Part shown: positions 40,448-45,206 of the stretch, one piece after another | Numbering within the stretch: position 1 is the stretch's first letter | Layout of the letters: each line of letters starts with the position of its first letter | Assembly (NCBI GenBank): GCA_902790475.1 | Contig: CADASG010000006.1 | Location: 1-64,000 of the forward strand | Direction of reading: 5' to 3' | From: an uncultured Ruminococcus sp. | GTDB taxonomy: Bacteria > Bacillota > Clostridia > Oscillospirales > Acutalibacteraceae | DNA length: 64,000 bases | The notes under the pieces: generated by a model | What the model was told of the DNA's origin: nothing | The model's database searches: none | Seen by the model: only the letters and a program-made list of their open reading frames with translations | Program-made: the position numbers and the translations under genes

Positions 40448-40515
40448 TGATATATTAGTACTTGGATAGGTGTTTATACTACAATTTTCTACTATTAATT
40501 AATGAGGTGAAACGA

Positions 40516-42237
40516 ATGGATACAATGAAGCTTTACAAAGACTGGTGCGAAAAAGCTGTTGACGACGCGGATTTAGTCAGTGAGCTTGCGGCGATTCAGG
40601 AGGATCAAAAGGAGATTTACGAACGCTTCTACACTGCGCTGAAATTCGGCACGGCAGGACTCAGAGGCATTATCGGAGCAGGTACCAACCGCATGAACAT
40701 CTATGTTGTGCGTCAGGCTACCCAGGGTCTGGCAAACTACGTGCTGAAAAAATACGGCAAGGGCGCAGTGGCTATTTCACACGACAGCCGCATCAAAGCC
40801 GATTTATTTATGATTGAGGCAGCAAAAGTCTTGGCGGCAAACGGAATAAAGGCATATATAACTTCCGAGCTGCAGCCGACTCCCGTTTTGTCCTATCTGG
40901 TACGCTATTTCCATTGCCAGGCAGGTATTATGGTTACGGCAAGCCACAATGAAGCAAAGTATAACGGCTACAAGGCATACGGCGAGGACGGTTGTCAGAT
41001 GACCGACAACGCCGCAAACGCCGTATATGACGAGATCACTTCTCTTGATATATTTGACGATGTAAAGACCATGGACTTTGACGAAGCGGTCAAAGCAGGT
41101 CTGATCGAATACGTTGATGACAGCGTTTATGACAGCTATCTTGAAAAGGTGCTTGAACAGCAGGTAAACCCCGGTATTTGCAAAGAAACCAACTTAAAGG
41201 TAGTATACACACCCCTCAACGGCTGCGGAAACAAGCTCGTCAGAAAGGTGCTTGAAAAAATCGGCGTAACCGAAACCGTGATAGTCAAGGAGCAGGAGCT
41301 GCCCGACGGCAACTTCCCCACCTGTCCGTATCCCAATCCTGAAACACGCGAAGCATTGCAGCGCGGCTTGGATCTGTGCGAGACCGAGCAGCCCGATCTG
41401 CTGCTTGCCACCGATCCCGACTCCGACAGAGTGGGCATTGCCGTAAAGGATTACGACGGCAGCTACCGTTTGATAACGGGCAACGAAAACGGCGTGATGC
41501 TGACCAACTACATTCTTTCCTGCAAAAAGGAAAACGGCACTCTGCCCGAAAAGCCCGTGGTGGTTAAGACAATTGTCAGCACTCCGCTTATCGACAAGCT
41601 GTGCGACGACTACGGCTGCGAGCTGAAAAACGTTTTGACAGGCTTTAAATACATCGGCGAAGTGATTCTTAATTTAGAGAAGGATCACGAGGAAAACCGC
41701 TATATGTTCGGCTTTGAGGAAAGCTACGGTTATTTGGCAGGCACCTATGTGCGCGACAAGGACGCTGTTGTCGCTTCCATGCTGATTTGCGAAATGGCAG
41801 CGTATTACAAAAAACAGGATAAGGATACTCTTGCAAGCGTAATCGACGGACTGTATAAGAAATACGGTTACTATCTGAACAAAACCTTCTCGTTTAAATA
41901 TGAAGGCGCTGAGGGTATGCAGAAAATGGCTGATATCATGAGCGGCATTCGCGGTAATCTGCCCGAGAGCATAGCCGGCTTCAAGGTTTTGAAGGTCAGC
42001 GACTACCAGCTTAAAACCGAAACCGACATGACAACAGGAGAAGAAACCAAGCTCACCCTCCCCACCTCCAACGTCATCGCGCTCCATCTTGAGGGCAACA
42101 ATTGTGTGATCGTCCGTCCCAGCGGCACGGAGCCGAAAATCAAGCTCTACATCACCGCTGTTGAAGAAAGCAAAGAAAAAGCGACCGAAATATGCAACAA
42201 GCTTCTTGAATCTTCCGAGGAAGTTTTGGGACTGTAA
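40516..42237 (+). CDS. Phosphoglucomutase/phosphomannomutase
   Basis: This 573-residue enzyme of the alpha-D-phosphohexomutase family (PgcA-type) has LKFGTAGLRGIIGAGTNRMN, the catalytic phosphoserine loop MVTASHNEAKYNGYK, the metal-binding DPDSDRVGIAV and the sugar/phosphate loops GFEESYGY and RPSGTEPKIKLY. It interconverts glucose 1- and 6-phosphate for glycolysis, glycogen and wall sugar nucleotides. The ATG at 40516 is chosen because GAGGTG lies eight bases upstream. Full length. Confidence 0.95.
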   Translation: MDTMKLYKDWCEKAVDDADLVSELAAIQEDQKEIYERFYTALKFGTAGLRGIIGAGTNRMNIYVVRQATQGLANYVLKKYGKGAVAISHDSRIKADLFMIEAAKVLAANGIKAYITSELQPTPVLSYLVRYFHCQAGIMVTASHNEAKYNGYKAYGEDGCQMTDNAANAVYDEITSLDIFDDVKTMDFDEAVKAGLIEYVDDSVYDSYLEKVLEQQVNPGICKETNLKVVYTPLNGCGNKLVRKVLEKIGVTETVIVKEQELPDGNFPTCPYPNPETREALQRGLDLCETEQPDLLLATDPDSDRVGIAVKDYDGSYRLITGNENGVMLTNYILSCKKENGTLPEKPVVVKTIVSTPLIDKLCDDYGCELKNVLTGFKYIGEVILNLEKDHEENRYMFGFEESYGYLAGTYVRDKDAVVASMLICEMAAYYKKQDKDTLASVIDGLYKKYGYYLNKTFSFKYEGAEGMQKMADIMSGIRGNLPESIAGFKVLKVSDYQLKTETDMTTGEETKLTLPTSNVIALHLEGNNCVIVRPSGTEPKIKLYITAVEESKEKATEICNKLLESSEEVLGL

Positions 42238-42441: not shown

Positions 42442-42468
42442 AAGAGGCGGCAAACGCTGCCGCCTCTT
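42442..42468 (-). terminator. Strong terminator ending the repeat/small-ORF unit
   Basis: On the minus strand AAGAGGCGGCA-GCGTT-TGCCGCCTCTT is followed by TTGTC. It closes a transcription unit of about 620 bases that starts near 43060. Confidence 0.85.
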
Positions 42469-42493
42469 GAAATCCTTCAAAAAATTAACTGAA

Positions 42494-42984
42494 CTTGGGA
42501 CTCAACTCCGAAAATAGATTTTGTTTTGGATTGAAAAATGAGTATTACATTGGACTAATCTCCGTTCGTCAAAATACCAAGAAAAAGATTAAACATACAT
42601 GGGACTAATCTCCTATCAATCGAAAAACAATTATCTTACTGAAATCCGTCGATATATATATCGAAAAAGTTATACTCTCATTGGACTATCCTCAGTGTTA
42701 AAATTCTTAGAAGACTTTTTAATATTAAATTGTAAGTAAGTCCGAAACCCGACCGCTTACTTGTAAGGCTGAGCCGATTATTGGGATAAGCGCTTCCTAT
42801 ATATCAACATCTATGAAAGTATGGAGGGCTATTCGACGGAAGCTGCCTATCATATGAATGCAAATCACGAAAAATAATAATTAATATGTTTTATAACATT
42901 GAAAATCTATGTTGCTTCAACTCAATAAGCTTAATCAGCGGTACCCGTAAACTCCGGGCGTGTTACATTGGGGGGTAATCTCCG
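42494..42984 (-). repeat. Five degenerate repeats with SD-like GGAG and start-stop ORFs
   Basis: On the minus strand a motif close to CGGAGATTAGTCCAATGTA occurs at 42966-42984, 42679-42695, 42598-42614 and 42548-42564, with a weaker copy at 42494-42510. Three of them are also followed by TTTTTC. In four copies GGAG precedes an ATG by about 8-11 bases, and that ATG is followed by a stop after none or two codons (ATG-TAA twice, ATG-TAT-GTT-TAA, ATG-AGA-GTA-TAA). The segment between copies at 42700-42960 is A/T-rich and non-coding, with an AAGTAAG/CTTACTT hairpin at 42733-42762. Function unknown. Confidence 0.6.
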
Positions 42985-43029
42985 CAGATAGTCTTTAATC
43001 TGTGGTCTGTAAGAAAACTTTACTTTCAT
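42931..43029 (-). CDS. Unidentified 32-residue small protein at the head of the repeat unit
   Basis: This ORF has ATG at 43029 with GGAGG eight bases upstream and lies about 30 bases after a consensus promoter. It reads MKVKFSYRPQIKDYLRRLPP then NVTRPEFTGTAD; basic in the first two thirds. The RRLPPN part is encoded by the first of the five repeats, and the same register in other copies gives RRLV-x-C. It has no signal peptide or membrane helix. I do not recognise a family. It could be a real peptide or simply a leader ORF in a regulatory RNA. Confidence 0.5.
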   Translation of the reverse strand: MKVKFSYRPQIKDYLRRLPPNVTRPEFTGTAD

Positions 43030-43066
43030 ATTAAAGACCTCCTTGTCATCTCTTTGATTTGTCTAT

Positions 43067-43095
43067 ATTATATATCATATTCTCAACAATGTCAA
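43067..43095 (-). promoter_or_regulatory. Consensus promoter of the repeat/small-ORF unit
   Basis: On the minus strand TTGACA (43090-43095), a 17-base spacer and TATAAT (43067-43072) match the housekeeping consensus at every position, the best promoter in the window. Confidence 0.85.
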
Positions 43096-43139: not shown

Positions 43140-43230
43140 TTGCGAAGCTATAAAAATTGTGGTATAATGTATATTGTGAGAGTGCAGAAAAAGCAGAGCC
43201 GAACGTTAAAACGGCTCTGCTTTTTTATTC
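43140..43230 (+). ncRNA. Candidate short RNA: promoter followed at once by a terminator
   Basis: TTGCGA (43140-43145), a 17-base spacer and TATAAT (43163-43168) are followed by only about 15 bases before AAAAAGCAGAGCCG pairs with CGGCTCTGCTTTTTT (43188-43226). A transcript of about 50-60 bases would result. No start codon with a ribosome-binding site lies in it. The hairpin also ends the minus-strand ydcF-like gene, so the RNA might be a by-product of a shared bidirectional terminator. Confidence 0.4.
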
Positions 43231-44916: not shown

Positions 44917-45165
44917 TCATTTTTCCCTGCCGAGAAGGTAGTCTACGGAAACCTCAAGAATATCAGCCAGTGCAACCAGCTCTACGTCGGTGACAAAGCG
45001 AATCTGTCCCTCCAGCTTTGAAAGCCCCGACGCGTTCATATCTACGCCGTTAACCTGAAGCTGGGCAAGCAGTTCTTTTTGTTTCATACCTTTTTGCTTT
45101 CTGACCAACTCAACACGGTTGCCCACCAAATTTCTGTCTCCCAATTCCTGTTTGCGTAATCTCAT
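44917..45165 (-). CDS. XRE-family helix-turn-helix regulator
   Basis: This small DNA-binding protein of about 82 residues runs from the ATG at 45165 (TTGGAG eight bases upstream). The HTH spans about 16-75 (VGNRVELVRKQKGMKQKELLAQLQ, then MNASGLSKLEGQIRFVTDVELVALADILEVSVDYLLG), close to Cro/C1 regulators. There is no effector domain. Four A/T-rich direct repeats immediately upstream could be its own operators. It is not next to a toxin or phage gene. Confidence 0.85.
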   Translation of the reverse strand: MRLRKQELGDRNLVGNRVELVRKQKGMKQKELLAQLQVNGVDMNASGLSKLEGQIRFVTDVELVALADILEVSVDYLLGREK

Positions 45166-45206
45166 TTTTATTCTCTCCAATTAGTTTTAATTCCTTTTTG
45201 AAATTC

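Follow-up and report, generated by a model that had tools for sequence, protein, structure and literature searches.

A conserved structured RNA carrying an array of start-stop mini-ORFs in the Ruminococcus bromii group, with a possible role in engaging ribosomes

The stretch of DNA analysed here (the window) comprises 64,000 nucleotides of contig CADASG010000006.1 from an uncultured Ruminococcus sp. (assembly GCA_902790475.1), and its minus strand harbors, from position 43095 to 42442, what by layout, as read directly, is one self-contained transcription unit (Table 1). The unit is bracketed by a perfect sigma-A type promoter and a strong intrinsic terminator, between which are located a 32-codon leader ORF (MKVKFSYRPQIKDYLRRLPPNVTRPEFTGTAD) with a good ribosome-binding site (AAGGAGGT), a long stretch without a larger ORF and an array of repeats of the GGAG-N-TCC-N-ATG type. 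Direct reading bore out these elements of a previous, sequence-only reading of this DNA, as it did the presence of five repeat copies, one of which lies inside the leader ORF. The same reading had described a GGAG followed by an ATG and an early stop in four of the repeats; the actual mini-ORFs are MRV-stop, MYV-stop and M-stop, while the ATG-TAA inside the leader ORF is not general, given that relatives, unlike the window, read AAT-GTN, AAC-stop and similar combinations after the Pro-Pro-Asn (PPN) codons, and the last copy carries AAG.

A genome search returned a single copy of the unit. The sole near match to a second repeat copy elsewhere in the genome is positioned inside an 825-amino-acid ORF and looks like chance. 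Within the 64 kb of the window, GGAGATTAGTCCMATGTA occurs twice at up to three mismatches, against 0.06 occurrences expected, and the pattern GGAG-N5-10-ATG-(0 to 2 codons)-stop occurs four times over both strands, two of these being in the unit. Both TTGACA and TATAATATAGACAA were read in many relatives, the promoter variant TATAATATGTACAAC in many units of the ML.RP clade, and a hairpin with a T run likewise follows the array in many relatives.

Table 1. Features of the transcription unit on the minus strand of the window.
Feature	Position	Strand	Basis or remark
Sigma-A type promoter, TTGACA-17-TATAAT	43067..43095	-	Read directly: TTGACA 43095-43090, 17 nt, TATAAT 43072-43067
Leader Shine-Dalgarno (SD), AAGGAGGT	43037..43044	-	Read directly
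Leader ORF, 32 codons, MKVKFSYRPQIKDYLRRLPPNVTRPEFTGTAD	42931..43029	-	Peptide-level conservation, 61 distinct units
Internal SD GGAG in Arg-Ser codons (Arg-Arg in the window), 7 nt 5' of the second Pro codon	42980..42983	-	GGAG in 61/61
Pro-Pro-Asn codons, putative stall site	42967..42975	-	PPN 61/61; third positions synonymous; residues after Asn variable
Hairpin just 3' of the PPN codons; 5' arm can alternatively pair with the distal core side	42943..42959	-	Shuffle test
Structured core (junction RNA)	42743..42962	-	Covariance model and covariation
GGACUUA, putative 5' strand of an array-closing helix	42737..42743	-	Pairs with 42498-42504
Mini-ORF 1, ATG AGA GTA TAA (MRV-stop)	42670..42681	-	GAGG at 42690-42693
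Mini-ORF 2, ATG TAT GTT TAA (MYV-stop)	42589..42600	-	GGAG at 42610-42613
Mini-ORF 3, ATG TAA (M-stop)	42545..42550	-	GGAG at 42560-42563
Last repeat GGAGTTGAGTCCCAAG, AAG replacing ATG	42494..42509	-	GGAG 42509-42506; AAG form gathered in 32 units
Intrinsic terminator, hairpin and T run	42442..42468	-	Read directly

Back to back with the unit, on the plus strand at 43140-43226, is a divergent promoter (TTGCGA ... TATAAT, the latter at 43163-43168) whose stretch soon ends in a terminator (GCAGAGCCG...CGGCTCTGC-TTTTTT). Several relatives, inspected by eye, likewise display a divergent -10 element and an early terminator, a nitroreductase-like gene being present instead in L007. A small helix-turn-helix gene is located near the unit on the minus strand (44917-45180; weak HTH matches below the Pfam cut-offs), and a similar-looking gene was seen by eye near the unit in some relatives, the other neighbors being different.

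The leader ORF comprises 20 to 35 codons among the units and terminates in RSLPPN or a near variant (RRLPPN in the window), the conserved segment across relatives being IKDFxRSLPPN. Some of the first 61 leader units had been chosen by a pattern demanding GGAG, and the features were therefore recounted on 61 distinct units selected without that demand (before duplicate removal, 44 early units, L106, L107 and 19 profile-found loci, L194 being too short). In this recount GGAG was present in 61/61 units and PPN, which formed part of the search criteria for some leaders, also in 61/61, with the motif split into RSLPPN (50 units), RSFPPN (nine) and RRLPPN (two, the window and L197). Among the first 61 distinct units, the R, P, P and N residues of RSLPPN are invariant in all 61 (entropy of 0), S is retained in 60, L in 56 (F in the remaining five) and I at position -5 in 60, whereas Asn is followed by 0 to 14 variable codons, of which the next three residues exceed 2 bits of entropy. 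Because the Arg codon is CGG (58 units) or AGG (three) and the codon after it AGC, AGT or AGA, GGAG is fixed at the nucleotide level. The Leu/Phe codons, by contrast, drift among TTA, TTG, CTT, CTC, TTC and TTT, the first Pro codon among CCC (23), CCA (21) and CCG (17), the second among CCC, CCT and CCA, and Asn between AAT and AAC. With GGAG and PPN constant in the recount and the Leu, Pro and Asn codons drifting, the leader peptide and the internal SD appear to be selected together.

A hairpin positioned at about 7 nt 3' of the PPN codons is more stable than in shuffled sequences (p<=0.05) in 20 of 61 units, the window giving p 0.10. It is plausible that the internal SD, Pro-Pro-Asn and the downstream hairpin together constitute a programmed ribosome pause. 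The internal SD and downstream hairpin also resemble a signal for programmed frameshifting at CCC CCN; this candidate was discarded because the variation of the first Pro codon among CCC, CCA and CCG means that no slippery run is kept. Pairing of the leader start (AUGAAAG) with the conserved CUUUCAU of the core was similarly rejected (mean z -0.08; 4/52 units at p<=0.05).

The mini-ORF array was assessed over 237 distinct sites from 80 distinct units, a site being defined as an ATG or GTG after CCN, picked by this pattern and individually uninspected. Closure within two sense codons was found at 172 sites in frame 0, compared to 88 in the +1 frame, 19 in the +2 frame and 54.4 +/- 5.7 with a shuffled flank, and only seven of the 237 sites were still open past nine codons. 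The stops at the early-closing sites are TAA (118), TAG (39) and TGA (15), the starts are ATG (233) and GTG (4), and ATG is directly followed by a stop at 25/115 sites. The sites thereby display the composition of minigenes, i.e., an SD, a start, one or two codons and a stop. Since relatedness inflates site counts, the types of substitution carry more weight than the counts themselves. The early stops are in part due to AU-richness and common descent, as the start-less, AAG-form last repeat also has close in-frame stops (within six codons in 31/32 and within two in 13/32).

The ML.RP clade (24 distinct units) is informative in this regard. Its units are composed of the leader, a short linker, three to seven mini-ORFs and the terminator, and codon 3 is a stop at 45 of 49 later sites (TAG 35, TAA 7, TGA 3). 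As many as 44/49 read ATG-NNC-stop, with TTC, ATC, CGC, TGC, TAC and CAC (F, I, R, C, Y and H) as second codons, the four exceptions among the 49 being a tRNA-gene false positive, two sites of L185 that are closed at another codon (M-stop and MRV-stop) and one MFQ-stop. The second site of these units is closed within five sense codons in 17/18 cases (MICL-stop, MIYS-stop, MIRS-stop, MIGL-stop and others, with all three stops in use) and after seven in L190, while the first site, which starts with ATG or GTG, is closed within three in 14/14 despite single-base indels that move the frame. Such a pattern of closure accords better with selection acting on short ORFs than on an RNA motif.

The spacing of the array is also regular: 118 of the 182 gaps between successive sites measure 44 to 60 nt (commonest 52, median 55), a distance close to the span covered by one initiating ribosome. 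The number of sites per unit ranges from one to seven over the 80 units, cut contigs included (as noted for L008, L083, L011, L142 and L190). Near-identical tandem units of about 101 nt in L008 suggest that arrays grow by duplication.

Application of RNAalifold to 13 clade-A units yielded a junction structure for the segment between the leader ORF and the array. Two-sided changes occur in 18 pairs of a selected 54-pair subset, itself derived from the same 13 sequences, compared to 6.7 in shuffles, and sliding of the pairing partners destroys the signal. A covariance model of the core, constructed from 13 relatives, matches the window over its full length (E 1.9e-6) and a further 15 distinct units over their full length at E<=1e-3, the other matches being partial or weak; no match was obtained in 12/44 sources (L012, L044, L052, L058, L082, L084, L106, L107, L136, L137, L196 and L197). 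The 33 core-model matches include an opposite-strand artefact (L063, E 4.6e-4) and a repeated unit (L018 = L006). Over these matches, 40 of 44 pairs exhibit two-sided changes, with a score of 0.271 against 0.101 when shuffled and at most 0.071 when slid, in an alignment that is fitted to the structure it tests and contains the L063 artefact and partial matches. The segment thus possesses the covarying secondary structure that characterizes structured noncoding RNAs and represents a conserved folded core, not filler. The window RNA as a whole folds no better than its shuffles (z -0.85, 4/20). The core model found nothing in the four ML.RP-clade loci tried (L058, L082, L106 and L107), and because these loci keep both leader and array, the latter two elements form the common minimum of the unit.

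Two further possible pairings of the RNA merit description. The first helix has a 5' arm (CCC..., just after PPN) that can pair either with a local partner or with the distal core side, which, as judged from complementarity alone, would make a two-state switch. The UGAGUCC of the last repeat can pair with a GGA(C/U)UUA upstream of the array, and in the window may close a long-range helix (p 0.037). The corresponding test, which covered units with a last repeat and a AATTTAATA anchor (L078, L085, L134 and L142, which have no such anchor, were left out), gave p<=0.05 in 7/23 units outside clade A and in 0/14 units within it.

The distribution of the unit was assessed by several searches. A leader profile built from 28 leaders matches 82 of 162 genomes of the genus of the window (the R. 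bromii group), its own included, at E<=1e-3, the weakest among the best matches of these 82 genomes being 7.6e-7; among good-quality genomes of the genus the proportion is 43/82. As about half of the genus genomes are without a profile match, the unit is not essential to the genus. The exact pattern AAGGAGGN4-9ATG followed by the leader end is present in 57/162 genus genomes, compared to 0 for the reversed control, and misses the window's own genome owing to the RRL variant there. A DNA pattern from promoter to leader start retrieved 38 named stretches in genome contigs, the carriers including R. bromii YE282, 5AMG and ATCC 27255 and many rumen or gut Ruminococcus assemblies. By blastn with the unit, 17/60 genomes, again including its own, were matched at E<=0.01 (the weakest of the 17 probably by chance), several of which share the leader end and the array end.

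When 398 genomes of the family were searched with the first profile, only four, all of them genus members, were matched strongly (E<=7e-8). The next best match (G841, E 4.5e-4) lacks an array and was judged by eye to be unrelated, and was consequently rejected as an occurrence in another genus of the family. An order-wide pattern search of 394 genomes returned four matches, two in genus members and two, apparently by chance, in genomes outside the genus (G304 and G394), whose matched stretches have no IKD..RSLPPN context. Within the searches made, the unit therefore looks restricted to the genus. One genome (G130) carries two clearly different units, L138 (G130:C85) and L196 (G130:C59), each with a leader and an array. 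Another unit, L197 (G174:C7), consists of a leader, a core-like stretch and a first mini-ORF without the usual -10 element and leader SD, its leader ATG directly following a TTGACA-like box; this unit may be a damaged copy.

Taken together, a conserved structured RNA whose mini-ORFs are under selection as ORFs is very probably what the unit encodes, as judged from comparative sequence evidence. The sequence-only reading had offered a regulatory RNA with minimal ORFs that could load and hold ribosomes, and this interpretation gains from the conservation of the start-stop layout over 80 distinct units and the covariation of the core; the conserved repeats, structure and ORF in relatives are contrary to the outcome by which that reading would have been abandoned. 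Its further suggestions fare less well. A peptide-precursor array is not supported, since it is the start, the early stop and the pitch that persist, the mini-ORF peptides themselves varying from repeat to repeat and from species to species; nor is a decayed multi-gene family, in view of the clear constraint on the leader peptide and the core. An active role of the complementary strand is likewise unsupported, given that promoter, terminator and the constraint on codons and stop codons are all found on the minus strand. No Rfam family scored above its gathering cut-off over the unit: the whole window yielded only two tRNAs above cut-off, and the unit alone, searched with permissive filters, nine matches that are all below it.

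What such an RNA does may be explained in several ways. The repeats might be RNA elements in which GG-N-CC folds into a small hairpin or base-pairs with the 3' tail of 16S rRNA (GGAUCACCUCC), with AUG and stop as by-products and the RNA binding the 16S tail or a protein. In 13 clade-A units, none of the four repeats departs from CC directly 5' of the start (or of AAG), and initiation alone does not explain this CC; the last repeat, moreover, retains GG..CC without an AUG. GGAG-N4-5-UCC is complementary to the 16S tail, and 77/88 repeats pair with it better than spacer-shuffled copies (mean gain of 2.1 kcal/mol), the tail sequence GCGGCTGGATCACCTCCTTT having been found in 3/6 genus genomes searched and not in the window's own assembly. 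Flanking positions also pair above expectation, the inner ones in 108/128 copies (89.9 expected) and the outer ones in 47/128 (33.6 expected), as compared to shuffles in which relatedness is disregarded, some copies contributing in two registers. If formed, the extended 16S pairing would reach almost up to the AUG and might, by way of speculation, hold a 30S subunit non-productively. As GGA..UCC can pair with itself as well as with the tail, however, local hairpin and 16S pairing are indistinguishable by sequence, and repeats acting purely as RNA would not account for the interchange of TAA, TAG and TGA at the stop, the change of ATG to GTG at one start or the closure maintained through indels, which makes this explanation improbable. 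Somewhat better placed, although still unlikely, is the view that the mini-ORFs only coat the RNA, i.e., that bound ribosomes shield an AU-rich structured regulatory RNA from nucleases while its action proceeds via the core or by base pairing. The strong conservation of the core in many clades is compatible with such a role, and mini-ORFs of the axe-txe and LEE leaders have been proposed to protect RNA in cis (PMC8708949); the ML.RP loci, on the other hand, keep leader and array without a core-model match (4/4), so that the action of the RNA there cannot reside in the core alone.

The leader peptide could itself be the product, acting in trans as a small protein or peptide with the remainder as a long regulated 3' region, and indeed it has the strongest SD of the unit and is conserved at the peptide level. 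Its strictest conservation is, however, found in the last residues up to Asn and gives way to 0 to 14 variable codons, as would be expected of a nascent-chain pause, and the three leaders scanned matched no entry of Pfam or NCBIfam; we regard a peptide product as very unlikely. Although a leader ORF, alternative pairings and a terminator are reminiscent of attenuators, a transcription attenuator or leader of a neighboring gene is scarcely credible: in the window the unit is closed off by its own terminator ahead of pgm (40462-42237), which runs on the opposite strand, and different neighbors were seen by eye in other relatives. Three further candidates were dismissed: replacement of tmRNA, as a standard tmRNA scores above cut-off in 6/6 genus genomes; replacement of 6S RNA, which is above cut-off in 4/6 genus genomes, below it in the window genome (at G000:C55:6317-6479) and not found in G069; and a phage origin, blastn of a phage collection being without a match.

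Relatives preserve this arrangement even though most of their sequence has diverged, and the RNA therefore probably acts through the engagement of ribosomes. The best overall explanation of the comparative data, to which we accord close to an even chance, is a stand-alone structured RNA, some 620 nt in length, engaging ribosomes at several fixed points; that the holding of ribosomes is the function of the RNA is a possibility we would place somewhat below even. It is proposed that a ribosome translating the leader would pause when Pro-Pro occupies the P site and Asn the A site. Two features would aid this pause: pairing of GGAG with the anti-SD, some 7 nt upstream, and the hairpin some 7 nt downstream. 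At the mini-ORFs, ribosomes would initiate, make zero to few bonds, and terminate or drop off; with the SD so close, re-initiation in place would be possible, so that several ribosomes could occupy each RNA. The leader pause would then choose between two folds of the core, the CCC... arm having two possible partners, one local and one on the distal side. Finally, the occupied RNA might buffer or sense ribosome supply, early-elongation or termination capacity in trans, or control its own lifetime. Among these steps, the leader pause and the events at the mini-ORFs are the most likely and the role of the occupied RNA is the least certain. In its fullest form, to which we give roughly one chance in three, the proposal is for a new class of ribosome-parking RNA, in which the leader pause sets the core fold and the SD-anchored start-stop array holds a row of ribosomes at footprint spacing, allowing the cell to sense or buffer its ribosome supply or its capacity for early elongation or termination.

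Bacterial minimal ORFs known to us have so far been single elements or pairs in mRNA leaders, or laboratory tools. In the present unit, from the group to which a keystone gut starch degrader belongs, what is conserved within a stand-alone structured RNA is whole arrays of mini-ORFs. These offer a natural system in which to ask what start-stop translation is for, whether an RNA may act through ribosome occupancy and how a nascent-chain pause may steer a large fold. To our knowledge, a genus-wide structured RNA with an array of start-stop ORFs is of a kind not described before; literature searches judged on titles and the beginnings of abstracts returned no paper recognizable as describing the RNA of this unit, and a search on minigenes and start-stop ORFs gave no result. 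The OLE, GOLLD and ROOL class of RNAs resembles the unit in being stand-alone and several hundred nucleotides in length, with a covarying core, and we know of no conserved mini-ORF arrays in that class.

SecM is a ribosome arrest peptide, and the leader has in common with it and with the RAPP-type peptides ApdA and ApdP a short conserved segment 5' of the putative stall, an Arg a few residues before Pro-Pro and a variable tail. As in arrest peptides, strict conservation is confined to the segment up to the putative stall codon. Control of a downstream gene, a further feature of such peptides, was not found, since the unit has its own terminator, the next gene in the window is on the opposite strand and neighbors of relatives, by eye, vary. 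The unit further differs from arrest peptides in its ORF of 20 to 35 codons, its internal SD within the Arg-Ser codons and the absence of a regulated gene downstream. RAPP-type arrest peptides combine an RxPP arrest module with a modulating N-terminal part (PMC10951233), whereas 59 of 61 units read RS(L/F)PPN, i.e., RxxPP-N, and only the RRLPPN of the window and L197 contains RxPP.

For the array, the nearest likeness is to minigenes, of which lambda bar is a precedent. Mini-ORFs of the unit share with lambda bar, axe-txe mg2 and the LEE mini-ORF (PMC8708949) an SD and start, one or two codons and a stop. Those minigenes occur singly or in pairs in an mRNA leader, whereas the unit lines up several mini-ORFs, spaced by close to 52 nt, in an RNA that is structured, stand-alone and conserved across the genus. 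Work cited in PMC8708949 has it that two-codon minigenes, the type that predominates in the ML.RP clade, are the most toxic when overproduced, that ribosomes on minigenes with a strong SD re-initiate in place without leaving, and that ribosomes on mini-ORFs protect RNA; the axe-txe minigene of that paper acted, by its account, in cis, and its overproduction was without growth inhibition. An AUG directly followed by a stop (AUGUAA), an arrangement also seen in the unit, is a functional stall element in the plant NIP5;1 5' untranslated region, which, in contrast to the unit, is eukaryotic, boron responsive and part of an mRNA (PMC11915504).
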